Both the position numbers and the translations under genes were made by a program. The notes under the pieces are model-generated. The model was not told the DNA's origin. It did no database searches and worked only from the letters and a program-made list of their open reading frames with translations. DNA of 64,000 nt from Kordia algicida OT-1 (lineage in GTDB: Bacteria; Bacteroidota; Bacteroidia; Flavobacteriales; Flavobacteriaceae), in contig NZ_DS544873.1 in NCBI RefSeq assembly GCF_000154725.1, forward strand, positions 3,385,339 through 3,449,338, in the 5' to 3' direction. Shown here one piece after another: positions 27,919 to 42,109 of this stretch (the stretch's first letter is position 1; every line of letters starts with the position of its first letter).

Positions 27919-28476
27919 ATGTCAAATGATGCTCATTTTATTGAAGGACTTCGTTCTGGAGAAAAAACTGTATTGCAAGAAATATATAATCAGTTTTTCG
28001 CGAAGGTTAAAACGTTTGTTTTACGAAATAAAGGTGCTGTTACAGATGCCGAAGACGTTTTTCACAACGCGTTAATTCAAATTTATATAAGACTCAAAAA
28101 GAGAGAATTAGAAATAAAATCTTCTTTTGAAGCATACCTCTTTACGACCTGTAAAAATCTCTGGAGAAGAGAATTAAATAAAAAACGGGTAACAAAACAA
28201 GAGGTTGTTGAACTAGAAGATAAAGAAACAGAAAATGCATTTGCATTACTTGAACAAGAACAGTGGGAATTGTACATAGAAAAGTTTCAATTACTCTCTG
28301 AAAATTGTAGAAAGGTGTTAACGCTCTTGTTTAATGGAACTTCGTATGAAGAAATCGTGGAAACTTTTTCATATTCATCTAAAGTAGTAGCTAGACAACG
28401 AGTTTTTAAGTGCAAAGCTAAATTAACCAAGCTAATTCAAGGAGACGCTAAGTTTTCTAAAATAAAAAAATTATGA
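27919..28476 (+). CDS. ECF RNA polymerase sigma factor
   Basis: A 185-residue ECF sigma factor. Region 2 runs from LQEIYNQFFAKVKTFVLRNKGAVTDAEDVFHNALIQIYIRLKK to FEAYLFTTCKNLWRRELNKK. Region 4 is FQLLSENCRKVLTLLFNGTSYEEIVETFSYSSKVVARQRVFKCKAKLT, a helix-turn-helix. Its stop overlaps the start of the membrane TPR protein (28473), the usual sigma/anti-sigma pairing. The divergent operon and the distant subtilase share a GGGTAAC-N15-TAACTAT promoter, so these are its likely targets. Confidence 0.93.
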   Translation: MSNDAHFIEGLRSGEKTVLQEIYNQFFAKVKTFVLRNKGAVTDAEDVFHNALIQIYIRLKKRELEIKSSFEAYLFTTCKNLWRRELNKKRVTKQEVVELEDKETENAFALLEQEQWELYIEKFQLLSENCRKVLTLLFNGTSYEEIVETFSYSSKVVARQRVFKCKAKLTKLIQGDAKFSKIKKL

Positions 28477-29285
28477 GTTTTGATGATAAAACGTATGAGC
28501 AAATCGCTTCATATTTGAACAATCAGATGAATGAAGCTGAAAAATCTACCTTTGAAGCTTTACTTAAAAATGACACAGAACTTGCTTCATTTGTAGAAAC
28601 ATTTTCTTCATTAGAAAGTGTGTACAATGAAGATACATGGACTGTAAAAAGCAATGCAAGTGTTGCCGAGGTAAAAGCACTTGCCAACGAATTTCGTGCA
28701 GATGATGTATTAGCATTGTCAAAGAAAATTCGTGATATCCAACAAACAGAAAATAACACCACTTCTTCTGGAAACAGAAAGTCATATTTCTACTATATTT
28801 CTTCTGCGGTGGCTATTGCGGCTGTTATGACCATGTTTTACTTTACATTCATGCAGTCAATTACTGCAACAGATGCTTTTGAGCAATACCATGATTGGAG
28901 TACATTGTCATCTTTTCAAACCAAAAGTGATACACTTAACAATTTGGTAAATGCGGAAAATTTATTCCAACAAGAAAAATATCAAGAAGCCTTAACAATC
29001 TTTGAGCAATCTGCCAAAAAAGATGCTATTTACGATCCGAAAAAGCATTTGTATATTGGTATTTCTTACCTAGAACTTGGCAACTATCACGAGGCACTTC
29101 AAACTTTTGACGCTTTACTAAATAGTGACGCACTCGACAATCACAAAGCATATTGGTACACTGCGCTTACGTATTTAAAGCAAAATGATGCTAAAAATGC
29201 AAAAAAAATACTTAAAACCTTAGTTCAAAATCCAGACAACTACAATTACGAAAAAGCAACAGAATTGCTAAAAAAATTAAAATAA
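28473..29285 (+). CDS. Membrane anti-sigma-like protein with TPR domain
   Basis: A 270-residue protein. The N-terminal cytosolic part (about 1-95, DDKTYEQIASYLNNQMNEAEKSTFEALLKNDTELASFVETF) resembles the start of Bacteroidota anti-sigma factors. One transmembrane helix lies at about 105-127 (SYFYYISSAVAIAAVMTMFYFTF), and three or four TPR repeats (about 165-268, ENLFQQEKYQEALTIFEQSAKK and LYIGISYLELGNYHEALQTFDALL) face the periplasm. It overlaps the sigma gene by four bases and is probably its membrane-bound regulator, releasing sigma on an envelope signal sensed by the TPR domain. Confidence 0.85.
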   Translation: MSFDDKTYEQIASYLNNQMNEAEKSTFEALLKNDTELASFVETFSSLESVYNEDTWTVKSNASVAEVKALANEFRADDVLALSKKIRDIQQTENNTTSSGNRKSYFYYISSAVAIAAVMTMFYFTFMQSITATDAFEQYHDWSTLSSFQTKSDTLNNLVNAENLFQQEKYQEALTIFEQSAKKDAIYDPKKHLYIGISYLELGNYHEALQTFDALLNSDALDNHKAYWYTALTYLKQNDAKNAKKILKTLVQNPDNYNYEKATELLKKLK

Positions 29286-29425: not shown

Positions 29426-30643
29426 ATGAATAAGGAGCTATTAGAAAAAAAGTTAAAAGAAATTGACCAAATCATCAAAGAGAAATACAAAGAAGAAACT
29501 CAAATAGGAGTGTTAGCAGGACTTTCTGGCATCGCTTTATTTGAGTTTTACTATTCTAAATATCTTGATATTGATGACCACGCCGATGTTGGTGTGGAAA
29601 TGCTTACAGATTGTATCGATAAAATAAACGAAGGGTACAGTTATCCTACATTCTGTACAGGTATTGCAGGAGCTGGATGGGTTTTAGACCATCTAGAACA
29701 AGAAGAATTTATGGATGCTGATAATGACGATTTATTACCCGAATTAGATCAGTATATACATACATTTATGGTAACCGACATGAAAAATGGAAACTACGAT
29801 TTTCTTCACGGAGCCATTGGATACGCTTTTTACTTTTTAAACCGGTATAGAAATACAAAATCTGACGAATTAAAAGAAAAATATATCACCATTCTTAAAG
29901 AATTTATGGACTTATTAAAAGATTTGTCTGAAGATGATGGTGACGGAAAAATAAAGTGGGAATCTGAGTTGAGCATTGAAACCAAAGAAAGAGGTTACAA
30001 CCTTAGTCTTTCACACGGAATGTCAAGTATTGTTGGTATTTTAACCAAACTTCACGTGTATGACGATTTCAAAACACAAGCAGAACCTATGCTTAAAGGT
30101 GCCATTAAGTACATTTTAAGTCATAAAACCACAGAAGAAAACCCTTTCTCTATTTTTCCAAGTTGGATAACTGAAAATAAAGAAGATGAAAACGGACAAA
30201 GTCGCTTGGCTTGGTGTTATGGTGATCTTGGTGTTGCCATGCGTTTTTGGTTTGCTTCCAAAACACTGAATGATGCTGCATTAGGCGAAACTGCTTTAGA
30301 AGTATTAAAACATTCTGCCGCAAGGACTAAAGTAGATGACAGTCTCGTGCGCGATGCTGGAGTTTGTCACGGTTCGTACGGAAATGCGCAAATGTTCTAC
30401 AGAATGTACAAAGAAACAGGAGATCAAGTATTTAAAGATGCATTTGAATTCTGGATTCAAGACGGAATTGATAGAGGTAACTTTGAAGATGGATATGCTG
30501 GCTACAAACAGTGGAAAGGTATGGACAAAAGCTGGGAACCTGAAGTATCACTTTTAGAAGGTGTAGCAGGAATTGGACTAAGTATTCTCGATTACCTAGC
30601 AGATTACGATACCAAATGGGATGAATGTTTAATGATAAGCTAA
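29426..30643 (+). CDS. lanC: LanC-like lanthionine cyclase
   Basis: A 405-residue cyclase with the alpha-toroid repeats of LanC. The zinc ligands are Cys264 in LAWCYGDLG and Cys314-His315 in DAGVCHGSYG. His197 in YNLSLSHGMSS and the C-terminal SLLEGVAGIGLSIL also match the family. It adds cysteine thiols to dehydrated serine or threonine to form (methyl)lanthionine. It is the first of the three biosynthetic genes here and precedes the two-part dehydratase. It sits between the ECF sigma genes and the lanthipeptide precursor genes. Confidence 0.95.
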   Translation: MNKELLEKKLKEIDQIIKEKYKEETQIGVLAGLSGIALFEFYYSKYLDIDDHADVGVEMLTDCIDKINEGYSYPTFCTGIAGAGWVLDHLEQEEFMDADNDDLLPELDQYIHTFMVTDMKNGNYDFLHGAIGYAFYFLNRYRNTKSDELKEKYITILKEFMDLLKDLSEDDGDGKIKWESELSIETKERGYNLSLSHGMSSIVGILTKLHVYDDFKTQAEPMLKGAIKYILSHKTTEENPFSIFPSWITENKEDENGQSRLAWCYGDLGVAMRFWFASKTLNDAALGETALEVLKHSAARTKVDDSLVRDAGVCHGSYGNAQMFYRMYKETGDQVFKDAFEFWIQDGIDRGNFEDGYAGYKQWKGMDKSWEPEVSLLEGVAGIGLSILDYLADYDTKWDECLMIS

Positions 30644-30648
30644 AACAG

Positions 30649-32904
30649 ATGAGTAAAAATCCATACAAGAATTTTTCAAAATACATATTACGAACACCAC
30701 TTTTCTCATTCACATCTTATCAAGAATTAACTTCCAAAAAAGAAATCTCTGATGAAGATTTCAAAACAGTTTGCGAAAATCCTGTTGTGAGAGAAGCACT
30801 ATTTTTAGCATCACCTTCCCTATTTGAAGAAATGAATCGTTGGCTCGCTGGCGAAATGGACGATGCTAAAAAAGAAGAAAAACTACGTTACTCTATCTTA
30901 AAATATATCTCTAGAATGTCTTCCAGATGTACACCCTTTGGACTCTTTGCAGGATGTTCTGTAGGTGAATTTGGAGAAGAAACAGATATCAAACTCAAAG
31001 GTTCTGCTCAAAACAAGCGTCACACACGTTTGGATATGAACTATTTGGTAGCGCTTTCGCAAGATTTGGTAACTAATAAAAAAATTAGAGAACAACTCTT
31101 ATTCTATCCAAACTCAAGTATATACAAAGCCGGACCGCAATTACGATATATTGAATACAAATACTTTAACAGTAGACGTCATCACCATATTGTAGCGGTT
31201 GATGATACTGAATATTTGGCCGTTGTTTTAGAAAAAGCTTCCAATGGAGCTTCCTTATCAGAATTGGCAAAACTTTTGGTGGATGATGAAATTACCATAG
31301 AAGAAGCTACCGAATTCATAGAAGAATTAGTGTCAAGTCAGTTGCTTATCAGCGAACTAGAACCTTCAGTTTCTGGTCCTGAATTCTTAGAACAAATCTG
31401 CAACGTGTTAGAACGCTTAGAAGGTGTTGAAGGAATTCTGGCAGCACTCAAAGAAGCAGACAACAAAATCAATAAGATTGACGAATCTATCGGAAACAAC
31501 CCAAAAGTATACCTAGAACTCAGTGAATTTTTACAGCAACTAGAAACCGATTTCGAACTGAAATTCATGTTTCAAACCGATATGGTATTACAAAATACCA
31601 AAAACACACTTAGCTCAACAGTGGTAGACGACATCAAAAAAGGGTATGCATTGCTCAACAGAATCTCATTTCCGCAAAGTACCACAACCTTAACGAAATT
31701 TAGAGATGCGTTTCACGAACGTTTCGAAGAACGTGAAGTACCACTTTCGACAGCATTAGATGTTGAAATCGGAATTGGTTACAAGCAAGATCAAGGTGCA
31801 GGAGACGTAAATCCGTTGGTAGATAATATTGTCATTCCTGGCAGACAATCCAAACATCAAATGATGGAAGTGCGTTGGTCGCCTATCAATTCATTCTTTC
31901 AAGACAAGCTTATTGAAGCATTTAAAAATGATGATTACATCATTACGATCAATGAAGACGACTTTAAAGACTACGATCTCAACTGGAACGATCTTCCAGA
32001 TACCATGTCATGTATGATTGAAATCTTAGAAGATAAAAACGGCGAACACAAAATCAAATTTAGCGGTGGTGGCGGATCGAGTGCTGCCAACTTATTAGGA
32101 CGTTTTTGTCATGGAGATGAAGAACTATTCGCGTACACGCAAGAAATGGTAGACATGGAAGCGGAAATGAACAGCGAAAAAATATTAGCAGAAATTGTGC
32201 ATCTTCCAGAATCGAGAGTAGGAAACATTCTCATGCGTCCAGATTTACGTAAATACGAAATTCCATACTTAGCAAAATCGATCAAACCGGAAGAAGATCA
32301 ATTACCAATTGACGATTTAATGGTTTCTGTAAAAAATCACAGCAAAGTATTGTTGCGTTCTAAAAAGCACAACAAAGAAGTTGTACCACACTTAACCAAT
32401 GCGCACAACTATTCACACAATTCCTTGCCAATTTATCATTTCTTAGCAGACATGCAAACGCAAGGAATACGAAGTGGCGTTGGTTTCGGATTAGGTCCTT
32501 TTGCAAATGACTATCCATTTTTACCTCGTGTAGAATTTAACAACTTAATCTTACACGATGCTACGTGGAACTTAAAGAAAAGTCACATTGAGCCATTATT
32601 AAAAGTTAAAAAAGACAATGATAAACTTACGGAAGCTATACAAACATTGCGCGATAGTCTAAAAATTCCGCAATACGTAATGCTTGCCGATGGAGATAAT
32701 GAATTGCTTGTCAACTTTGAAAACCTTACTTCTGTACGTATGTTACTAAACACCGTAAGTAAGCGAGGTTCTTTCAAACTTACCGAGTTCTTATTTAGCG
32801 AACGCGGTGTTGTAAAAGAGGGAGATGAATATTACACAAACCAAGTAGTAATTTCATTTTATAACGAACAAAAATTAACTCAAAGCAAGCAAAGCAATGA
32901 ATAA
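30649..32904 (+). CDS. lanB: Lantibiotic dehydratase, glutamylation (N-terminal) part
   Basis: A 751-residue protein beginning MSKNPYKNFSKYILRTPLFSF. It carries the lantibiotic dehydratase N-terminal fold, with YILRTPLFSF, YISRMSSRCTPFGLFAGCSVG and a late PFLPRVEFNN. This part uses glutamyl-tRNA to glutamylate Ser/Thr of the precursor. The C-terminal elimination domain is absent and is encoded by the next gene, so this is a split LanB. The ATG at 30649, six bases past the LanC stop, is preferred over one overlapping lanC at 30625. It overlaps the next gene by eight bases. Confidence 0.93.
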   Translation: MSKNPYKNFSKYILRTPLFSFTSYQELTSKKEISDEDFKTVCENPVVREALFLASPSLFEEMNRWLAGEMDDAKKEEKLRYSILKYISRMSSRCTPFGLFAGCSVGEFGEETDIKLKGSAQNKRHTRLDMNYLVALSQDLVTNKKIREQLLFYPNSSIYKAGPQLRYIEYKYFNSRRHHHIVAVDDTEYLAVVLEKASNGASLSELAKLLVDDEITIEEATEFIEELVSSQLLISELEPSVSGPEFLEQICNVLERLEGVEGILAALKEADNKINKIDESIGNNPKVYLELSEFLQQLETDFELKFMFQTDMVLQNTKNTLSSTVVDDIKKGYALLNRISFPQSTTTLTKFRDAFHERFEEREVPLSTALDVEIGIGYKQDQGAGDVNPLVDNIVIPGRQSKHQMMEVRWSPINSFFQDKLIEAFKNDDYIITINEDDFKDYDLNWNDLPDTMSCMIEILEDKNGEHKIKFSGGGGSSAANLLGRFCHGDEELFAYTQEMVDMEAEMNSEKILAEIVHLPESRVGNILMRPDLRKYEIPYLAKSIKPEEDQLPIDDLMVSVKNHSKVLLRSKKHNKEVVPHLTNAHNYSHNSLPIYHFLADMQTQGIRSGVGFGLGPFANDYPFLPRVEFNNLILHDATWNLKKSHIEPLLKVKKDNDKLTEAIQTLRDSLKIPQYVMLADGDNELLVNFENLTSVRMLLNTVSKRGSFKLTEFLFSERGVVKEGDEYYTNQVVISFYNEQKLTQSKQSNE

Positions 32905-33811
32905 CGAAATACAAAGAAATTTTATCTTAGGAGACAGTTGGCTGTATTATAAAATATATACAGGACCAAAAACCTGTGATGCTGTGCTAACGGAAATCAT
33001 CAAACCTATTGCCGAACAGTTAATAGCACACGGAATAATTGACAAATGGTTTTTTATCCGATATGCCGATCCAAAACATCATGTTCGTGTACGTTTTCAC
33101 TATACCAAACCTGAAAATGTTGGATTTATTATCAACGGATTGTATCCGAAGTTTAAAGAATTTATCGATCAAGATTTAATCTATAAAATCCAAATTGATA
33201 CGTATCAACGCGAAATAGAACGTTACGGATCCAATACGATGGAATTGGCAGAAGCGATGTTTTACCATGATAGTAAAATGATTGTTGATTTTATTGACAT
33301 GATTGAAGGCGATGAAGGCGAAGAACTACGTTGGTTGTTCTCTATCCGTGCAATGGATTCTCATTTAACAAGTTACGGCTACAACGACGATGAAAAGCTA
33401 GAACTTTTAGATCGTTTAAAAACTGGATTCGGAAATGAATTCGGGATGTCGCGTCCGCTAAAAAAGCAATTGGACGACAAATTTAGAGCCGAGCGTAAAA
33501 AAATTGAAGAATTCATGGTATTTACGGCGGAAGAAAATCCAGATTACGAACCAATTTTAGATGTTTTAGCACAAAAAGAAGAAGGCATCAAGGATATTGC
33601 GGCAGCAATCATTAAACACAAAGAAGATGAAACATTGATGATGCCAATTAACGACTTAATGGGAAGTTATTTGCACATGTTAATGAATCGTTTGTTCAAA
33701 TCAAAAAACCGTATTCATGAAATGGTATGTTACGATTTCTTATATCGTTACTACAAATCGATGATTGCGCGTAAAAAGCACATGAATAAAAATAAAAACA
33801 AGAAGAAGTAA
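32897..33811 (+). CDS. Thiopeptide-type/LanB C-terminal elimination protein
   Basis: A 304-residue protein of the small LanB/thiopeptide-type bacteriocin family. The N-terminus reads NFILGDSWLYYKIYTGPKTCDAVLTEIIKPIAEQL, followed by KWFFIRYADPKHHVRVRFHY, which holds the basic residues expected to bind the glutamate leaving group. The C-terminal half is helical and ends in a Lys-rich tail. It completes the two-part dehydratase by removing glutamate to leave dehydro-amino acids. It overlaps the glutamylation gene by eight bases, and an intergenic repeat region separates it from the first precursor gene. Confidence 0.92.
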   Translation: MNNEIQRNFILGDSWLYYKIYTGPKTCDAVLTEIIKPIAEQLIAHGIIDKWFFIRYADPKHHVRVRFHYTKPENVGFIINGLYPKFKEFIDQDLIYKIQIDTYQREIERYGSNTMELAEAMFYHDSKMIVDFIDMIEGDEGEELRWLFSIRAMDSHLTSYGYNDDEKLELLDRLKTGFGNEFGMSRPLKKQLDDKFRAERKKIEEFMVFTAEENPDYEPILDVLAQKEEGIKDIAAAIIKHKEDETLMMPINDLMGSYLHMLMNRLFKSKNRIHEMVCYDFLYRYYKSMIARKKHMNKNKNKKK

Positions 33812-33819
33812 TATTCTCG

Positions 33820-33970
33820 ACTCGCTGTGCATTTGGATAAAATTCGTCAATTCGAGTGAATTTTACGATTGAAAATAAGTAAAATTAGTATCGAGAATAG
33901 AATTTTTGATATGAAACAAGTTCTCGATACGATTTTCCGTTCCTCAAAATCACTCGAACGGACGTTTATT
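33820..33970. repeat. Dispersed intergenic inverted-repeat element
   Basis: GTATCGAGAA (33888-33897) is the exact inverse of TTCTCGATAC (33921-33930), which is followed by ACTCGAACGGACG (33952-33964). The last two strings recur at 2180-2217, so this is a repeat family rather than part of the lanthipeptide locus. Confidence 0.6.
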
Positions 33971-34088
33971 AAATGTTTGAGTTCTAAATGCACAATAAAT
34001 TATTCTTAACATATAATTATAAGAAAAGTAACAATAATGTATTCTTAATTTACGTTAAAATTGTGTATTAATTAAAATTTTAAAAATT

Positions 34089-34226
34089 ATGAAAAAACAA
34101 AATTCAAAACTTCATTTAGCTAAAAAAGTAATTTCTACTTTAAAAACAAATGCTATTAAAGGAGGAACTAATACTCTTCCTACATACAAAACTGATCCTG
34201 CTGTAGAATCAACAGATAACTGTTAA
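34089..34226 (+). CDS. lanA: Lanthipeptide precursor A1 (LanA), 45 residues
   Basis: A leader of 26 residues ending NAIKGG and a 19-residue core TNTLPTYKTDPAVESTDNC, which has five Thr/Ser and one C-terminal Cys. The leader has K-L-x-L-A-K-K-x-I-S-x-L, the pattern of Bacteroidota class I lanthipeptides. With a single Cys at the end, at most one lanthionine ring can form, leaving several dehydro residues. It lies after the two LanB parts and before the regulator, and is followed by a strong terminator. The double glycine fits cleavage by the C39 transporter at 38312-40519. Confidence 0.88.
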   Translation: MKKQNSKLHLAKKVISTLKTNAIKGGTNTLPTYKTDPAVESTDNC

Positions 34227-34247
34227 TAATAATAACATAAATCTACG

Positions 34248-34277
34248 AAAAGGTCTAGTAAATTACTAGACCTTTTT
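34248..34277 (+). terminator. Terminator after lanA1
   Basis: AAAAGGTCTAGTA and TACTAGACCTTTT form a 13-bp stem with a T run. Confidence 0.9.
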
Positions 34278-34385
34278 TATTTTCTATCCTTTACACGAAA
34301 GCAATTACCTTTCATCCTACTTATTTTTTTTCTCCACAGAAAACCGTTATACTTGTATATTCCCAATTACCTTAATATTTTAAGA

Positions 34386-36098
34386 ATGTATCCTAAAAAA
34401 TCTTCTTACCCAACATGCTATTACATAGTTGTTGTCATCCTTTTTTGCTGTTCGCTTTCGCTGAATGCACAAACCGATTCACTACAAGAAAAATCGTATG
34501 AGGAGTTGATAACACTTTTTGAGACTACTTTACGGAAAGATGCTATAAAAGCGAAAGTGTATGCTGAAAAATCATATCAATTAGCTAAGGAAGAAAATAA
34601 TTTAGAAAAAAAAGCGCTGGCAAAATATAGCATTGCCCACGCCAACTATACTATTGCAGCATATACATTATCAATTGAAAACCTTAATGATGTTATTAAA
34701 ATTGCTGAAGAACTCAACGACAATATATTATTATTTAGAAGTCATAATTTAAAGGGAAACAATCTATGTGATCTCAATAAAAATAGTGAGGGTTTTGAAG
34801 CCTATAAAGAAGCTAGGAAATATGCAAGGCTTACGAAAAATCCAATACATATATCTACGGTCAACATTAATATAGCGCTTATAAAAAAGGTGCATAAAGA
34901 TTACCAAGAATCAATTAATATTTTACTAGAAAATTTAAAGCTTTTAGGAACATTAGATACTGAAAGCAGAGAAAAAACATACAATAAACGAATCATTTTA
35001 TCACAGCTTGCAGATACATATCTTAGGATTAGTCAACCAAAAAAAGCTGACTATTATAACGATTTAGCTTTAGAAATATCTCCTAAAAAACAATTTCCAA
35101 ATGCCTATTATTGGGCTTTATCAAATAAAAGTATTATTCACTATCAAAATAAAAATTATAAACAAAGTATTGATATTTGTAAACAAATAGAAACATATTA
35201 TTTAAGTACAAATGAGCTTCCCAATTTAACAACGCCATATTTTTACATTGGAAAAAACTCTTATGAATTGAAAGAGTTTCATCAAGCTATAAAATATTTA
35301 GAAAAAGTAATTACTATTTCCGATGAATTCAAGTTAGATTTTTCAGAAGAAAAAGAAGTATATAAGTATTTACAATGGTCAAATTCAGAAATAGGAAATC
35401 ATAAAAAAGCCACTGAATATTCTAAGAAATTCTATGAATTAGATAAGATAAACGACAGTCTTGATATTTCTCTAAACAACCGAATTCATAAAGAGCATGA
35501 TATTATTCCTTTGCAAGAAGAAATTGACTCTTTAGATAAAAATACCAAATATTTATATATCATTTCGACTATTCTAATCATATTCCTTATTGGGTTCTTT
35601 ATTTGGTTTAAGCAAAAGCAACAACGCAATAAAAAACGTTTTCAAGAATTATTAGTTACCATTGAAAAACTAGAACAACCGAAAGAGAAAATAATTCCTG
35701 AGGTTGTTGTGAAGGAAACTTCCAATACAGTCACTGATGAAAATGCACTGCAGATTTTAAAAGATTTGGAGAAATTTGAAGCAAAAGAATTGTACTTACG
35801 ACAAGATTGTACACTGAGTTATGTTGCTAAGAAATTAAAAACAAATACAAGTTATTTATCAAACGTAATTAATACGTACAAAGAAAAATCATTTAAAACC
35901 TACCTTTCAGAATTACGAATCAATGCTGCCTTAATACAACTGAAAAATGATCCTAAATTACGTTCGTATACCATTAAAGCCATTGCAGAAGAATTCGGTT
36001 TTAAGCGTTCAGAAACCTTTTCAAGAGCCTTTAAAGCGCAAACAGACATGTACCCATCATATTACATAAAAAGCCTTCAAAATCAGAAAGATACATAA
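34386..36098 (+). CDS. TPR-containing membrane regulator with AraC-type HTH domain
   Basis: A 570-residue regulator with a signal or anchor (about 10-30), TPR repeats (about 50-390), a transmembrane helix (about 404-422, YLYIISTILIIFLIGFFIWF) and a C-terminal AraC-type helix-turn-helix (about 480-565). The HTH contains QDCTLSYVAKKLKTNTSYLSNVINTYKEKSFKTYL and AIAEEFGFKRSETFSRAFKAQTDMYPSYY. The sensor faces the periplasm while the HTH is cytosolic. It sits among the lanthipeptide precursor genes and may control them in response to an extracytoplasmic signal. The ATG at 34386 is preferred to an upstream in-frame TTG. Confidence 0.9.
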   Translation: MYPKKSSYPTCYYIVVVILFCCSLSLNAQTDSLQEKSYEELITLFETTLRKDAIKAKVYAEKSYQLAKEENNLEKKALAKYSIAHANYTIAAYTLSIENLNDVIKIAEELNDNILLFRSHNLKGNNLCDLNKNSEGFEAYKEARKYARLTKNPIHISTVNINIALIKKVHKDYQESINILLENLKLLGTLDTESREKTYNKRIILSQLADTYLRISQPKKADYYNDLALEISPKKQFPNAYYWALSNKSIIHYQNKNYKQSIDICKQIETYYLSTNELPNLTTPYFYIGKNSYELKEFHQAIKYLEKVITISDEFKLDFSEEKEVYKYLQWSNSEIGNHKKATEYSKKFYELDKINDSLDISLNNRIHKEHDIIPLQEEIDSLDKNTKYLYIISTILIIFLIGFFIWFKQKQQRNKKRFQELLVTIEKLEQPKEKIIPEVVVKETSNTVTDENALQILKDLEKFEAKELYLRQDCTLSYVAKKLKTNTSYLSNVINTYKEKSFKTYLSELRINAALIQLKNDPKLRSYTIKAIAEEFGFKRSETFSRAFKAQTDMYPSYYIKSLQNQKDT

Positions 36099-36187
36099 GT
36101 GACGTTTTATAAAATATCACTTATACTTTTTAAATAGTTGCCTTTTTTTTTAGACATTTAACTCGTTAAACTAAAACAAAGATTATT

Positions 36188-36421
36188 ATGAAATCACTAA
36201 AACTGAAAAAAGTAAAAATTTCAAGAATAGGAAATCCCCATATCCTATTTGGAGGAGCATCAAACGATAATGGTTGCACAACTGCGCCACCACCGCCACC
36301 TCTTACATTAAATATAGAATGTATTAAGTCAATGCATAATGAATGTGATACAGTAACTAATACTACTGGTGGACAGAGAACAAGTGGTAGATTTAGTGGT
36401 GGTACAGACGACGGAGAGTAA
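36188..36421 (+). CDS. Lanthipeptide-like precursor A2, 77 residues
   Basis: The leader MKSLKLKKVKISRIGNPHIL ends in FGG. The core of about 54 residues has a run of five Pro (APPPPPL), three Cys, and several Thr/Ser (CTTAP, SMHNECDTVTNTTGG, RTSGRFSGGT). It lacks the clear L-x-L-A-K-x-x-I pattern of A1 and A3 but has the basic leader and GG of Bacteroidota natural-product precursors. It may be modified by the same LanB/LanC set or be an unmodified or differently modified peptide. A strong terminator follows. Confidence 0.75.
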   Translation: MKSLKLKKVKISRIGNPHILFGGASNDNGCTTAPPPPPLTLNIECIKSMHNECDTVTNTTGGQRTSGRFSGGTDDGE

Positions 36422-36442
36422 AACAAAATCACCAATAATTTC

Positions 36443-36475
36443 AAAAAGTCTTTAGCAATCCACTAAAGACTTTTT
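36443..36475 (+). terminator. Terminator after precursor A2
   Basis: AAAAAGTCTTTAG and CTAAAGACTTTTT form a 13-bp stem with a T run. Confidence 0.9.
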
Positions 36476-36587
36476 TTGTTAATTAACAATTCCTTAAGCG
36501 TTATGTATGAGTTTGTTCTGTATATTTAAAGTTATTATTCCTCAAATTCCTAATGATGTATTTTTTATTAACTAAAAAAATTAAATC

Positions 36588-36863
36588 ATGAAAAAACAAA
36601 AATTAGGATTAAACAAACTGAACTTAGCAAAGTCAAAAATTGCAGAATTAAATTCGCATAATGCAAAAGGTGGTTGGAATACAGCATCTACAAATCCAGA
36701 TTGTCTTGCTACAGGTATTTATGATGGTTGTGAAGTAACAGGCAACTGCAATACTGCAAATCATTGTGGAAATACCAATAATGGTTGCCAAACCAACGGA
36801 TGCTCTAATGGTTGCGGAAACACACAAACACGAGAAATTATTTCCTGCTACGAAGCATGTTAA
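36588..36863 (+). CDS. lanA: Cys-rich lanthipeptide precursor A3, 91 residues
   Basis: The leader, with KLNLAKSKIAEL and ending HNAKGG, closely matches A1. The core of about 62 residues is unusually Cys- and Asn-rich: nine Cys in a spaced series (NPDC, YDGC, TGNC, NHC, NNGC, TNGC, SNGC, IISC, YEAC) with many Thr and Ser. It could hold several lanthionine rings. It starts about 165 bases after A2 and is followed by its own terminator, so the precursors are probably expressed separately. Confidence 0.85.
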   Translation: MKKQKLGLNKLNLAKSKIAELNSHNAKGGWNTASTNPDCLATGIYDGCEVTGNCNTANHCGNTNNGCQTNGCSNGCGNTQTREIISCYEAC

Positions 36864-36876
36864 AAATGAATCATAT

Positions 36877-36911
36877 AAAATCCTTTCAGGCTAACTTCCT
36901 GAAAGGATTTT
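36877..36911 (+). terminator. Terminator after precursor A3
   Basis: AAAATCCTTTCAGG and CCTGAAAGGATTTT form a 14-bp stem. Confidence 0.85.
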
Positions 36912-36951
36912 TATAATGAAAAAAAAGAATGTAAACATTGTTATATTATTA

Positions 36952-38310
36952 CTATTTTCTACTAAAAACTTCTCGTAACTGATAGAAAATACGTTGCATT
37001 ACGGTCAATTCTTCTACGACAATTTCTGCGGCACCTTCCATTTCTTGTTTAAAATCAATAGACTTTTCAAAAGAACTTTCTAATGATTTTACCTTTAAAT
37101 ATGCCACATACATTGGCGGTCCACCTTGCGGATTTAATTGTGGTACTCCAGAAATATTGATAATTTCTCCCGATAAACTTCCCCATTCTTGGTATGGATA
37201 ACTATCTAATTTGATAATTACGCTTTGACCAACTTCAATTTTTCCTGAATTCTGCACAGGAAACGATACACGCCCAATAATGCCTTCTATTTCATCTGGA
37301 ATTACAGTAAATAAGTCCTGTCCTACATTTACATTTTGGTACTTTGACCAAATGTCAAAAACAGTTACTTCTCCTTGTATAGGCGATTTTAGTACAAATT
37401 GCTGTTCCCATTGTAAAATTTGATTCTCTAAATCTTGTTTGGCTTGTTCTAAATTTTGATCTGTAGAAATTTCAGAACTTTTGTCACCAACTGAAGCCTG
37501 ACGTAAGTTGTTTTGTAATGTTAATATAGAACTTTCATCGTTTTCAATACTCGCCAACAAACCTTCATACGCACGTTGCGCTCCTAAATATAAATTTTCT
37601 TGATCTTTAAATTCTCGTTCAGATACGCTCTGACGTGAAAACAATCGCTTAAACTTTTCATAACGCTTTTTTGAGTTTTCCAGCTCAGATTTGTAATAAT
37701 CCAACTGATTTTTACTATTTCGTAACCTATTGCGAACTCTCCCCAATTGCAAACTTATATTCGCCGCCTGATTTTTATCTTCACTAAAGGTTGTGTAGTT
37801 TAAATATGTAAGATATTGTGCTCTAAACGCATTATAAACCGACTGTATTGGTCCTAATTTTAATTTTGTTGGAAATGTATAGTTTAAAGAATCAAAATCA
37901 TTCTGATTAGGTTTAAAGTCTTTTAATTTTTTCTTCAACAATTGTACATCTTCAAAATTTGCTGTGTTTTCAATAACTGCCAACACTTGATCGGCTTCTA
38001 CTTTTTGTCCAGCTTCTACAAAAATACTGGTTAATTTTCCAGAGGTTTTTGCCGTTAAATGCGCAGGCGGATTTTCAGAAGTAATCGTTACTCTTGCACG
38101 AATGATATCGTTGTAACTCAGTAAGGACGATCCGACCAAAAACAGAATAATAATGACAAATACAACCGAAATTCCCCATTGAATTACCCAATTCGGAGCT
38201 TGGCCAAGGATTTCCTTTACCTGATCGGAACGTTCGTCAAGATCATTAATCTTCTTGCGTCTTTCTTCCTTTTTTTCTTCTTCTTTTTTCTCGTCTTTCT
38301 TCTTTGCCAT
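36952..38310 (-). CDS. HlyD family membrane fusion protein (export adaptor)
   Basis: A 452-residue adaptor with a charged N-terminus rich in Lys and Glu, one transmembrane helix (about 42-66), a barrel-like lipoyl/biotinyl region (GKLTSIFVEAGQKVEADQVLAVIENT), a long coiled-coil hairpin (about 110-310) and a second barrel half (SPIQGEVTVFDIWSKYQNVNVGQDLFTVIP). It bridges the ABC transporter encoded immediately upstream to the outer membrane. The ABC gene's stop is one base from this start. No TolC-like gene is visible here. Confidence 0.93.
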   Translation of the reverse strand: MAKKKDEKKEEEKKEERRKKINDLDERSDQVKEILGQAPNWVIQWGISVVFVIIILFLVGSSLLSYNDIIRARVTITSENPPAHLTAKTSGKLTSIFVEAGQKVEADQVLAVIENTANFEDVQLLKKKLKDFKPNQNDFDSLNYTFPTKLKLGPIQSVYNAFRAQYLTYLNYTTFSEDKNQAANISLQLGRVRNRLRNSKNQLDYYKSELENSKKRYEKFKRLFSRQSVSEREFKDQENLYLGAQRAYEGLLASIENDESSILTLQNNLRQASVGDKSSEISTDQNLEQAKQDLENQILQWEQQFVLKSPIQGEVTVFDIWSKYQNVNVGQDLFTVIPDEIEGIIGRVSFPVQNSGKIEVGQSVIIKLDSYPYQEWGSLSGEIINISGVPQLNPQGGPPMYVAYLKVKSLESSFEKSIDFKQEMEGAAEIVVEELTVMQRIFYQLREVFSRK

Positions 38311-38311
38311 A

Positions 38312-40519
38312 TTAGTTTCCTAGCTCTAATTGATTTTTTACTAACGTATAATATGATCCGCGTTTTGCGGTTAATTCTTCATGGTTTCCTAATTCGATAA
38401 TTTTTCCTTTGTCAAGTACAATAATTTGGTCTGCATTTTTTACAGTACTCAAACGGTGCGCAACAACAACAACGGTTTTTCCTTTGTAGAATTCCTGTAG
38501 GTTTTCCATAATTACCTTTTCGTTATTCGCATCCAAAGCACTGGTTGCTTCGTCAAAGAAAATATACTTCGGATCTTTGTAAACCGAACGTGCAATGAGA
38601 ATACGTTGTTTTTGTCCTCCAGAAACATTTACACCACTTGATCCAATTTTAGTATTATATCCTGATGGCAATTCTTCGATAAAATCTTCAATATTGGCAA
38701 CTTTTACTGCGTGAATCAAACGTTGTTTGTCAATAATTCCTTCTGAATCAGATTCTGTAATATTTCTTGCAATCGTATCGCCGAATAAGAAACCATCTTG
38801 CATTACTGAACCGCAGGATTTACGCCAAGTTTTAGTACTAATGTCGCCCAATTTATGCGGACCAATGTGAATAGAACCTTCATTAAAGTCGTAGAATTTC
38901 AACAATAACTTAATCAATGTTGTTTTTCCACTTCCACTCGCTCCCACAATTGCGGTTACTTTTCCTTCTGGAATATCAACTGTAATATCATCTAAAATTA
39001 ATGGCGAACTTTTTCCACCGTAACGGAAACTTGCATTGGTCAATTTGATGGTTTTATCTGCTGGTAATTCTTTAATATTATCTTCAAAACGATCTTCTTC
39101 ATCATCTTTATTGTGAATTTCAGACAAACGTTCCAAACTAATTTTTGCATCTTGTCCAGATTGAATAAATGTGATAAAGTTGTTAATTGGCATGTTTAAT
39201 TGTCCAATGATATACTGAACTGAAAGCATCATACCCAACGTAAATAATGGATCGTCAATAACGGAAGTCGCCGCAATGTAGGTAATGATAATATTTTTTA
39301 ATTCGTTGATAAATCGTCCTCCTGTATTTTGTGTTTGCGAAAGCGCTAAACCTTTAATCGAAATTTTAAATAAACGCACTTGAATTGCTTCCCATTCCCA
39401 ACGTCTTCTACGTTCAGAACCATTCAATTTTATTTCCTGCATTCCAGAAATCAACTGATACAAACTACTTTGATTGTCGGAAGATTGGTCAAATCGTTTG
39501 TAATCAAGTTCGGCTCTCTTTTTCATAAACAGCAACGTCCAACCAATATACAAAGCTGAACCAATAAAGAATATGGCGAAAATTTGCATGTTGTAATATG
39601 CTAATACGGCTCCAAAAATAATCATGTTAAACGCCGAGAAAAGTGTATTTAATGTAGTTGACGATAGAAAACTCTGAATCCTATTGTGATCGTAAATACG
39701 CTGAATGATATCTCCTGTATTTTTCGAATCAAAAAATGCAATTGGCAAACGCATCAGCTTGATTAAGAAATCTGAGATCAAATTAATATTAATCCGGCTC
39801 GTCATGTGGAGTAAAATCCAACCTCGAATCAGTTCGACAGTAGTTTGCGATATAAACAGTGTTAATTGCGCAATTAATATCAGGAATACAAAGTTTTTGT
39901 TCTGATAATTAATACCATAATCCACTACAGATTGGGTTAAAAACGGAAATATCAATTGCAACAAACTCCCTACAATAAGTCCCAACACCAACTGCATGAT
40001 GTATTTTTTGTAAGGCTTAAAATACCAGAATAGAAACTTAAATCCGTATTCTTTCTTTTCTTCCTTCTCCATTTCGTAAAACTCTGGAGTTGGCTCTAAA
40101 AGCAGTAAATATCCTTCCGCAGTATCTGGATCAGCAGTATTTCCTATCCAACCTTTTAAGAAGTCTTCTTTAGAATATTTTACCAATCCATGCGCAGGAT
40201 CGGCAACATACACTTTATTTCTTTTTATTTTATATACGACCACAAAGTGACGCTGTCTCCAATGCGCAATACACGGATACGGAACTTCGTCAACTAAGGT
40301 TTTATAATCGACACTTACTGCCAATGTATGCAAGCCAATTTCTTCAGCAGCTTCAGCAATTCCTCCTAAGGAAACACCTTCTCGGGTAATGTTTGCTTTT
40401 CTTCGTAGAAAATCAATTGTATATGCGCGTCCAAAATGTTTTGCTACCATACGCAAACATGTAGGTCCACAATCCATTTGGTCTAACTGCCTGTAAAAAG
40501 GAAATTCTCTCTTTATCAT
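38312..40519 (-). CDS. C39 peptidase-containing ABC exporter (LanT-like)
   Basis: A 735-residue exporter. The N-terminal C39 peptidase has Cys17 in QLDQMDCGPTCLRMVAKHFG, His91 in QRHFVVVYKI and Asp107 in YVADPAHG. Six or so membrane helices (about 170-470) follow, then a nucleotide-binding domain with IVGASGSGKTTLI, the signature VSGGQKQRI and Walker B YIFFDEATSALD. It is expected to cut after the double glycine of the precursor leaders and export the cores. Its presence with class I enzymes and the GG leaders is what makes this cluster a hybrid. It is divergent from the AAA ATPase gene. Confidence 0.95.
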   Translation of the reverse strand: MIKREFPFYRQLDQMDCGPTCLRMVAKHFGRAYTIDFLRRKANITREGVSLGGIAEAAEEIGLHTLAVSVDYKTLVDEVPYPCIAHWRQRHFVVVYKIKRNKVYVADPAHGLVKYSKEDFLKGWIGNTADPDTAEGYLLLLEPTPEFYEMEKEEKKEYGFKFLFWYFKPYKKYIMQLVLGLIVGSLLQLIFPFLTQSVVDYGINYQNKNFVFLILIAQLTLFISQTTVELIRGWILLHMTSRININLISDFLIKLMRLPIAFFDSKNTGDIIQRIYDHNRIQSFLSSTTLNTLFSAFNMIIFGAVLAYYNMQIFAIFFIGSALYIGWTLLFMKKRAELDYKRFDQSSDNQSSLYQLISGMQEIKLNGSERRRRWEWEAIQVRLFKISIKGLALSQTQNTGGRFINELKNIIITYIAATSVIDDPLFTLGMMLSVQYIIGQLNMPINNFITFIQSGQDAKISLERLSEIHNKDDEEDRFEDNIKELPADKTIKLTNASFRYGGKSSPLILDDITVDIPEGKVTAIVGASGSGKTTLIKLLLKFYDFNEGSIHIGPHKLGDISTKTWRKSCGSVMQDGFLFGDTIARNITESDSEGIIDKQRLIHAVKVANIEDFIEELPSGYNTKIGSSGVNVSGGQKQRILIARSVYKDPKYIFFDEATSALDANNEKVIMENLQEFYKGKTVVVVAHRLSTVKNADQIIVLDKGKIIELGNHEELTAKRGSYYTLVKNQLELGN

Positions 40520-40822: not shown

Positions 40823-42109
40823 ATGCTCGTAAAATTCACAGTAGAAAACTATTTATCTTTTAAAAATAGAACCTCTATTGATTTGACAGCTACTTCACTT
40901 ACCGAATTGCGAAGTACCAATCTTTATGATGCGCCATTGAAAAATTTGACGCTTTTAAAAAGTATGATTGTTTACGGAGCAAATTCTAACGGTAAGAGTA
41001 ATTTATTTAAGGCCATCAACTTTGCGCGAAAGTTTATCATTAATTCTTCTAAAAACTCGCAAGCAGATGAAGCTATAGAAGTGCAACCTTTCTGCTTGTC
41101 TGTTGAAACCATTGAAAATCCTAGTTTTTTTGAGTTTATATTTATTCATGAAAGTGTAAAATACCGATACGGTTTTGAAGTAGATGAAGAACAAATTCAC
41201 AAAGAATGGTTGTACATGACCACAAAGAATAAAGAACAACTTTTGTTTGAACGAGCGCTGCAAGATATCAGCATTACTAAAAAATATGATGCTGCAAGCA
41301 CAAATCTGACTTCAATTACACGAAAAAATGCGTTGTTTTTATCGGTTTGTGCACAATTCAATATTCCTGTGGCGATGTCTATTTTAAAAGCATTGAACAA
41401 TGTGCAATATATTTCTGGAATGCAAGATCGGTTTACAATCAATTTTACGATTGACATGATGGACGATCCTGAAAAGAAAAAATATATTGATAATTTTATT
41501 GCTGGTGCCGATTTAGGATTTACCGAAACGAAAGTAGAACGTTTTAAACTTACAGAAGAAATTTTGGAGAAAGGAAACGTTCCGAAGGAAATTAGAAAAA
41601 TGATTTTAGAATCGGATGAGGAAAATGTTGTGGTAAGTACAAAACATCCTATTTATGATGAAAACAACGAAGAAATAGACACTATTTACTTTAATTTATT
41701 TGTGAATGAATCGTTAGGTACGGGAAAATACGTGGCGCTTTCGGGTCCAATTATAGATACATTATTACACGGAAAAACACTGATTATTGATGAGTTTGAC
41801 GCACAATTACATCCACATTTAAGTAAATCTATTGTAGAGTTGTTCAACTCTAAAGAGAACAATCCGCATGGTGCGCAATTGATTTTTGCTTCGCACAATT
41901 CTTCATTAATCAATTCAAAACGAAAACTTTTTAGACGCGATCAAATTATTATTGCTGAAAAAGATCAGTACGGCGTTACTTCACTAGAATCGTTGTACGA
42001 CAAAAAAATCCGCAAAGATGCTTCTTTCGAAAAAGACTATCTCGAAGGAAAGTATGATGGAATTCCTGATTTGAAAATTGATGATAATTTTCGTTTGTTT
42101 GATGCGTAA
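40823..42109 (+). CDS. RloA/AAA15-type ATPase, apparently without its usual partner
   Basis: A 428-residue ATPase of the AAA15/OLD-related group. It has the N-terminal VENYLSFKNR, the P-loop YGANSNGKSNLF, and at the C-terminus the Walker B and switch region TLIIDEFDAQLHPHLSKSIVELF followed by LIFASHNSSLI. Such proteins often form a defence operon with RloB, but no RloB-like gene follows: the 200 bases after the stop contain only a terminator. It lies between the lanthipeptide export genes and the starch-use locus and has its own promoter. Confidence 0.88.
   Translation: MLVKFTVENYLSFKNRTSIDLTATSLTELRSTNLYDAPLKNLTLLKSMIVYGANSNGKSNLFKAINFARKFIINSSKNSQADEAIEVQPFCLSVETIENPSFFEFIFIHESVKYRYGFEVDEEQIHKEWLYMTTKNKEQLLFERALQDISITKKYDAASTNLTSITRKNALFLSVCAQFNIPVAMSILKALNNVQYISGMQDRFTINFTIDMMDDPEKKKYIDNFIAGADLGFTETKVERFKLTEEILEKGNVPKEIRKMILESDEENVVVSTKHPIYDENNEEIDTIYFNLFVNESLGTGKYVALSGPIIDTLLHGKTLIIDEFDAQLHPHLSKSIVELFNSKENNPHGAQLIFASHNSSLINSKRKLFRRDQIIIAEKDQYGVTSLESLYDKKIRKDASFEKDYLEGKYDGIPDLKIDDNFRLFDA

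Follow-up and report, generated by a model that had tools for sequence, protein, structure and literature searches.

The question raised by the cluster at positions 29426-40519 of the window, by which we mean the whole stretch of 64,000 nucleotides of Kordia algicida OT-1 analysed here (contig NZ_DS544873.1, positions 3,385,339 to 3,449,338), is what is sensed and what is controlled by a membrane-anchored regulator encoded among its precursor genes. This regulator combines TPRs with an AraC-type helix-turn-helix (HTH) and is hereafter referred to as AraC/TPR; it is followed by the gene of precursor B, one of three precursors with double-glycine (GG) leaders beside the enzymes LanC, LanB-N and LanB-C. 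We consider it moderately probable that the locus is a class I lanthipeptide cluster with an autoinducing receptor-peptide pair, and that pairs of this kind control lanthipeptide-type precursors, partly in trans.

The AraC/TPR receptor and its pairing with GG-leader peptides

The regulator gene (34386-36098, plus strand; 570 residues from the ATG, with TTG at 34353 as alternative start) was identified by Pfam matches to HTH_18 and TPR and by hydrophobic segments as that of a membrane one-component regulator. The layout is a signal peptide, a TPR superhelix, a membrane helix and an AraC-type HTH, with the superhelix placed by prediction on the outer side of the inner membrane. An AlphaFold model from a 27-sequence alignment (predicted local distance difference test, pLDDT, 85.8; predicted template modelling score, pTM, 0.57) has a signal helix, a TPR superhelix at residues 38-335, one long transmembrane helix and a C-terminal HTH. 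Foldseek against the PDB gave peptide-bound LGN, through its TPR domain, as the top matches, with RapI, RapF-peptide and NprR at ranks 44, 47 and 48. A profile sequence search of the receptor against the PDB returned nothing informative past 'TPR', and PADLOC gave no match for the regulator. Neither this gene nor the extracytoplasmic function (ECF) sigma/TPR pair upstream of the cluster (27919-29285) was mentioned in the initial annotation of the locus.

The pairing of receptor and peptide is established computationally. The genome's 35 HTH_18 matches (34 above the Pfam cut-off) were all surveyed for a following open reading frame (ORF) with a Lys/Arg-rich start and with G then G or A at residue 15-47. 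Sixteen of the 35 AraC-type ORFs encode proteins of 559-607 residues with a membrane segment near residue 356-430, and 14 of these 16 are followed on the same strand by a GG-leader ORF 10-127 bp downstream, whereas none of the 19 other AraC-family proteins has one within 150 bp (Fisher 5e-8). Within 400 bp three of the 19 others pass the rule (at 180, 207 and 350 bp), none of them leader-like by eye. As for the two misses, the fifteenth receptor is followed by a leader-like peptide with GKG, and the protein at 705 kb is the one under the Pfam cut-off and is unmatched by the AraC/TPR query. The cores of the paired peptides contain 7.5% Cys (15 own-genome entries, one counted twice) versus 0.8% in the ORFs of the window, and 8.4% in 34 pairs of other Kordia genomes; Ser and Thr together make up 22-24% of paired cores versus 13% in window ORFs.

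Pairing in other genomes and its link to LanB

Eleven Kordia genomes, that of K. algicida OT-1 included, have 20-62 receptor matches each, some genes counting twice. Every second of the 80 best-ranked listed places was sampled (n = 40), the LanB cluster and the own genome being left out, and a G[GA] leader peptide was found within 200 bp of 34 of the 40 receptor genes; on the same 40 segments the reverse strand gave 2/40 and shuffled sequence 0/40. In four of the six misses a leader-like peptide is present but lacks GG or GA where it would be expected; the fifth has a GG peptide about 318 bp off and the sixth has none.

The link between pairs and LanB-bearing genomes is likewise established by computation. 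Among LanB-bearing genomes of other genera, pairing was seen at 14 of 30 receptor loci, four beside LanB-N and ten elsewhere, the set being 12 of the 24 genomes outside Kordia and the own genome with a LanB-N match, weak matches among the 24 included. In 12 LanB-free genomes, hand-picked as having listed AraC/TPR matches and no LanB-N match, none of 30 loci is paired, and leaving out four that had already been seen to be peptide-less (G063, G078, G198, G287) gives 0/19. One LanB-bearing genome (G211) had no AraC/TPR match at threshold. Two others (G039, G195) carry a long unsplit LanB frame of 1069 and 1040 residues; 0/6 of their loci are paired, against 14/24 in the remaining genomes. A family set of 16 loci (0/16) was chosen as already peptide-less and was not used as a control. 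Around LanB-N itself, 20 loci from family genomes, one of the 20 being Kordia, include an AraC/TPR gene in 12 cases, 11 of the 12 with a peptide. On a tree of 147 receptors, which includes peptide-free clades, the paired state switches 20 times, whereas 300 shuffles average 46 switches and never give fewer than 36.

Near-constant spacing between a palindrome and peptide genes

Directly 3′ of the receptor gene stands the palindrome GTGACGTTTTATAAAATATCAC (36099-36120, no strand assigned), a candidate operator of the regulator, the inner 20 bases of which end 68 bp upstream of precursor B (36188-36421, plus strand). This palindrome is kept in 12 of 12 Kordia cassettes. Across the own genome the inner 20 bases are matched with at most three mismatches at 34 places and the reversed pattern at 15, and six of the 34 lie 64-71 bp upstream of a GG-leader ATG. 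Eleven places have at most two mismatches: five have a GG-leader ATG 64-71 bp downstream (precursor B, a receptor pair at 768 kb, L280, L283 and L284), three precede two look-alike secreted proteins (L277/L278, L279) and three precede neither (L281, L285, L286). Of 23 places with three mismatches, two, L300 and L299, are followed by a GG-leader ATG, at 71 and 110 bp respectively. For random positions drawn from 304 kb of own-genome sequence, in which peptide loci are abundant, the score is 2.2% in the range of 40-150 bp, and with the source site left out the binomial probability for six of 33 places is 8e-5.

Four other Kordia genomes have 13 places with at most one mismatch and none for the reversed pattern, and a GG-leader ATG is found 66-75 bp downstream of ten. 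Three of these ten (L320, L322, L323) share their peptides with the cassettes that supplied the motif (L003, L008), and seven are new. As for the other three places, an AraC/TPR gene starts 185 bp downstream of L324, and other genes follow L325 and L326. The near-fixed distance between palindrome and peptide gene is thereby established computationally. At eight of the 16 peptide-linked places (L280, L283, L284 and L300 in the own genome; L316, L318, L327 and L328 in other Kordia) there is no AraC/TPR gene in the locus sequence examined. The scattered peptides L280/L328 and L284/L327 are, by eye, relatives between genomes that retain the site. The motif is present 3′ of the receptor gene for 24 of 26 members of the clade of the lanthipeptide receptor and for none of 121 receptors outside it. 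Position and clade-specificity together suggest that the HTH binds the palindrome and activates precursor B and the scattered LanA-like genes. A k-mer enrichment returned AT-rich words only and was uninformative.

Copies of the palindrome were also seen 71 and about 128 bp before the look-alike secreted proteins at L278 and L279 (326 and 309 residues), which are possibly further members of the regulon.

Divergence of the putative sensor domain

In the 12 Kordia cassettes the mean pairwise identity is 46-49% in the TPR part versus 87% in the HTH. Similarity of the TPR part follows that of the peptide core (Mantel r 0.69, p 1e-4), also without the near-copy in L005 (0.68, p 1.5e-4). For the HTH against the peptide core the correlation is 0.51 (p 4e-4) and drops to 0.17 without L005, which is not significant; for LanB distance it is 0.22 (p 0.06) and 0.05, not significant, without L005.

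The lanthipeptide cluster and its precursors

All cluster genes, namely LanC, LanB-N, LanB-C, the C39-ABC exporter, the HlyD adaptor and three GG-leader ORFs, are present and intact. LanC (29426-30643, plus strand) matches Pfam LANC_like PF05147 (E 1.2e-43); Cys264, Cys314 and His315, which we take to be the Cys-Cys-His zinc ligands, are invariant in an alignment of eight sequences including that of the window. The best NCBIfam match of LanC is LanM (TIGR03897, 91.5 bits), and judged by sequence it is akin to LanM cyclase domains, like the LanCs of Bacteroidetes class I clusters. Glutamylation and elimination domains of a class I LanB are both present as separate proteins, LanB-N (30625-32904, plus; Lant_dehydr_N PF04738, E 1.4e-150) and LanB-C (32897-33811, plus; Lant_dehydr_C PF14028, E 2.4e-73, TIGR03891). 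The two proteins correspond to the two halves of NisB-like enzymes with solved structures, LanB-N aligning with NisB and 9g04 and LanB-C with the C-terminal part of 9g04 and with 5ehk, and the stretches RxTPFGLF, RLD, GRF and GS..HM..NR, presumably catalytic, are retained. The LanB-N of the window is the only PF04738 match in the genome. On the minus strand follow the HlyD-type periplasmic adaptor (36952-38310; PF13437) and the C39-ABC exporter (38312-40519; Peptidase_C39 PF03412, E 4.5e-38, with PF00664 and PF00005). The content given by the initial annotation, a LanC, a split LanB, a C39 transporter and three GG-leader precursors, is therefore borne out by Pfam and NCBIfam matches and ORFs, and so is the co-occurrence of class I enzymes with GG leaders and a C39 exporter.

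The conserved block is led by the ECF-type sigma factor (27919-28476, plus; Pfam Sigma70_r2), whose gene is overlapped by that of a protein with TPR Pfam matches and, by eye, one hydrophobic segment (28473-29285, plus), a candidate anti-sigma factor or sensor. This pair is kept in 8 of 8 other Kordia loci compared, and weaker matches (ECF 33-36%) stand beside the Aquimarina clusters L015-L017. The class I lanthipeptide cluster was present in all nine Kordia loci looked at, with LanB-N 89-94% identical to that of eight Kordia records. Since gene order, including the ECF sigma factor, the upstream TPR protein and the AraC/TPR regulator among the precursors, is syntenic in 8/8 other Kordia loci and the core type with nine Cys is kept, the block is not a chance arrangement.

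The initial annotation had counted three unlike precursors with one, three and nine Cys; the counts stand, but the description needs correcting, the three belonging to different classes. Precursor C (36588-36863, plus; 91 residues, nine Cys) has an LxLxKx5L leader with GG and is by its sequence the conserved LanA-like peptide of the cluster. Its core type is kept across the genus Kordia with 7-9 Cys and in a shorter form in Leptobacterium L010 and genome G288; in 17 sequences a [ST]T.P.C..TG....C block and a C-terminal SC...C (TC in two) are retained and the middle of the peptide is variable. Precursor B (77 residues, Pro-rich, three Cys) belongs, on sequence and position, to a separate class, the peptides linked to an AraC/TPR receptor gene. 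Such a peptide stands behind the AraC/TPR gene in 12/12 cassettes of the nine Kordia loci, window included, with two cassettes each in L003, L005 and L008, and its leader ends in AG instead of GG in L004, L006 and L007. Precursor A (34089-34226, plus; 45 residues, GG leader, one Cys) varies between species: it is Cys-free in L005 and degenerate in L002, occurs beyond the window otherwise only in L003, and was not found in 5 of 8 Kordia loci. Intrinsic-terminator-like hairpins were called by a terminator scan 3′ of precursor A (34247-34277, plus) and of precursor B (36443-36475, plus).

By eye the LxLxKx5L motif fits precursors A and C, and precursor B closes the motif with Ile. Of the three, only precursor C scores against a curated leader model (lant_leader_L1a, 18.8 bits, under its cut-off of 22). 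The LxLxKx5L leader ending in GG and the C39 protease in the cluster, by which the Bacteroidetes class I subgroup is defined, are both found here. In Aquimarina clusters a peptide with a distinct leader lies within 200 bp behind 10 of 15 AraC/TPR genes; these ten are set apart from the other precursors, and eight have a single Cys.

Beside the cluster, an AAA_21 ATPase (40823-42109) gave a strong PADLOC match to AbiLi (293 bits) and is found at this place in 6 of 8 Kordia loci, the remaining two stopping short of that position. Near a LanB of the same type, three loci from Psychroserpens and a relative (L011, L013, L014) have 3-5 similar GG peptides in rows and one more LanC-like gene.

Proposed mechanism and alternative explanations

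In the proposed mechanism LanB-N and LanB-C would dehydrate and LanC would cyclise the GG-leader precursors, which the C39-ABC/HlyD exporter would cleave at the GG and then export, precursor C giving a multi-ring product. The HTH of AraC/TPR would bind the palindrome at 36099-36120 and drive precursor B, and through the palindrome copies the same receptor would also drive LanA-like precursors scattered over the genome, to be matured and exported by the single LanB/LanC set and a C39 exporter. The TPR ectodomain would most likely bind the exported mature form of the adjacent peptide, receptor and peptide thus forming an autoinducing pair, of which there would be many per genome. We infer that precursor B is modified by LanB and LanC and that its neighbour's TPR domain senses the adjacent peptide. 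A wider scheme, in which split-LanB flavobacteria in general would hold tens of membrane TPR-AraC receptors, each with its own lanthipeptide-type peptide, a central LanB/LanC acting in trans and clade-specific operators before scattered precursors, is put forward only tentatively.

Several observations weigh against this proposal. The window has only one palindrome site (at most three mismatches), with none at LanC or precursor C, and 27 of the 34 own-genome matches are not upstream of GG peptides. The operator pattern used for the clade count was fixed after an earlier k-mer analysis, and the pairing rule and its 150-bp limit after a first look at own-genome loci. One of the 19 other AraC-family proteins (370 residues, at 1107 kb; L086) has a GG-leader ORF of 37 residues, under the length limit of the rule, 162 bp downstream, and further GG peptides follow from 405 bp on. 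After export, a mature peptide of tens of residues must also pass the outer membrane if a periplasmic sensor is to meet it. The idea that all receptor-peptide junctions carry a palindrome was considered and is unsupported (6/44 intergenic regions with p<=0.05); because this test was mostly negative, the operator claim is kept for the clade of the lanthipeptide receptor only.

Could the regulator simply be an ordinary local activator of a bacteriocin, with a TPR domain that responds to envelope stress, a partner protein or some other cue rather than to the adjacent peptide? The architecture evidently has other uses, as receptor relatives lack a GG peptide at 30/30 loci of LanB-free and 16/30 loci of LanB-bearing genomes and form peptide-free clades in the tree, and physical linkage of neighbours can by itself yield co-divergence of TPR domain and peptide core. 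Against this, the ectodomain is far more diverged than the HTH in Kordia cassettes, the TPR part tracks the peptide core better than the HTH or LanB do, and the pairing is repeated many times per genome, so that we regard a purely local activator as unlikely. Much the same weight is given to the view that the receptor-linked peptides, precursor B among them, stay unmodified as GG signals or serve as substrates of other enzymes, the type of precursor C being the sole lanthipeptide. Cys is absent from three own-genome paired peptides (L171, L172, L174), behind which stand genes for an S9 prolyl oligopeptidase (two) or an S8 subtilase (one). Only two of ten own-genome GG peptides scanned exceed the lant_leader_L1a cut-off, one of the two being receptor-linked, and one of the two also nears the leader model of a radical-SAM ribosomally synthesised and post-translationally modified peptide (RiPP); other enzymes may therefore act on some peptides. 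Yet in the genera sampled the pairs were found only in LanB genomes, and the average core has a high content of Cys and Ser/Thr, which makes this view improbable as a general account.

A reading of the palindrome as a terminator or a 3′-terminal RNA element of the regulator gene would agree with its start right after the stop codon and with the short T run that follows within ten bases in the window. GG-peptide genes whose examined locus lacks an AraC/TPR gene are, however, preceded by copies at 64-75 bp, which rules against a terminator, and a scan requiring three G-C pairs does not call the palindrome one, leaving this explanation very improbable. Hardly more probable is the description of the locus as a new hybrid of class I enzymes with class II leader and exporter, kin to pinensin and yielding three lanthipeptide products. 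Enzymes and exporter do match it, but the mixture that the initial annotation took to be unusual is already on record, GG leaders and C39 proteases being described for Bacteroidetes class I clusters in the available text of Walker et al. 2020 (PMC7268733); moreover precursor A is unconserved and precursor B falls in the receptor-linked class. The combination of enzymes, leader and exporter is of an already known kind.

Other LanC groups in the genome

Two further groups of the own genome, L061:7399-9740 (~1.588 Mb) and L062:9798-11858 (~3.478 Mb), each combine a LanC with a nucleotidyltransferase (NTP_transf_2) and a GG-leader peptide. No LanB is found there, the sole PF04738 match of the genome being in the window and the neighbours having been only partly scanned, and the nucleotidyltransferase might stand in for LanB in activating Ser/Thr. 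Nothing on this grouping was found by title in the open-licence literature. At L060:6045-9478 (~3.08 Mb) genes for APH, HopA1 and LanC stand in a row, a make-up that we take to be that of class V lanthipeptides.

Significance and comparison with known systems

Recurring pairs of receptor and small peptide, partly with a common DNA switch, suggest an unrecognised peptide signalling network. Signalling by a propeptide and a TPR receptor is known from Gram-positives; if the proposal is true, membrane-spanning TPR peptide signalling in Bacteroidota, tied to lanthipeptide enzymes and repeated many times in each genome, would open a new field of signalling and could account for the many orphan GG-leader peptides of these bacteria. 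The candidate operator makes the regulon partly predictable and directly testable, and would offer a handle to induce silent lanthipeptide clusters.

The closest likeness is with the class I clusters of Bacteroidetes, for which the available text of Walker et al. 2020 (PMC7268733) describes leaders with LxLxKx5L, many of which end in GG. According to that text such clusters often include a C39 protease, several class I clusters share the split LanB of pinensin, and the LanCs resemble LanM cyclase domains. The Kordia cluster shares the LanB/LanC chemistry, these leaders, the C39 protease, the split LanB found in some and the LanM-related LanC. With the pinensin cluster (family I 17 in PMC7268733, as far as that text goes) it has the split dehydratase and a Bacteroidota host in common. 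Two Bacteroidota class I peptides, from Chryseobacterium and Runella, were modified in E. coli according to the accessible part of PMC9993889. Unlike the Kordia cluster, those of PMC7268733 and PMC9993889 come with no mention, in the available text of either, of paired AraC/TPR receptors or a shared operator, and the Kordia precursor sequences are their own by comparison with the clusters shown there. For Bacteroidales RiPP clusters, one sentence in the available text of PMC10352776 raises TPR proteins near RiPP genes as regulators after pheromone binding. The likeness lies in TPR genes near GG-leader precursors; unlike in Kordia, the TPR genes are not described in that text as peptide-paired AraC receptors, nor is an operator. 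Elsewhere in the open-licence literature no description was found of pairs of AraC/TPR receptor and GG peptide.

In RRNPP systems (PMC10075063, available text) the TPR receptor and the propeptide are encoded in adjacent genes, as in Kordia; the screen reported there covered Firmicutes only, and TprA/PhrA is cited as regulating a lantibiotic cluster. The Kordia regulator has the TPR receptor beside a propeptide gene but not the cytoplasmic receptor with imported peptide of that class, and it is not classed as RRNPP because a signal peptide and a membrane helix are predicted. It further differs in a TPR domain predicted outside the inner membrane behind the signal peptide, an AraC-type HTH, a Gram-negative host and a peptide with a GG leader that is mostly rich in Cys/Thr. 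Autoinduction is familiar from nisin, where the lanthipeptide induces its own genes through NisRK. The proposal for Kordia is alike in that a lanthipeptide would induce its own genes; unlike in the NisRK system, sensor and HTH are here joined in one membrane protein, and a scan of genes in the Kordia cluster turned up neither a histidine kinase nor a response regulator.

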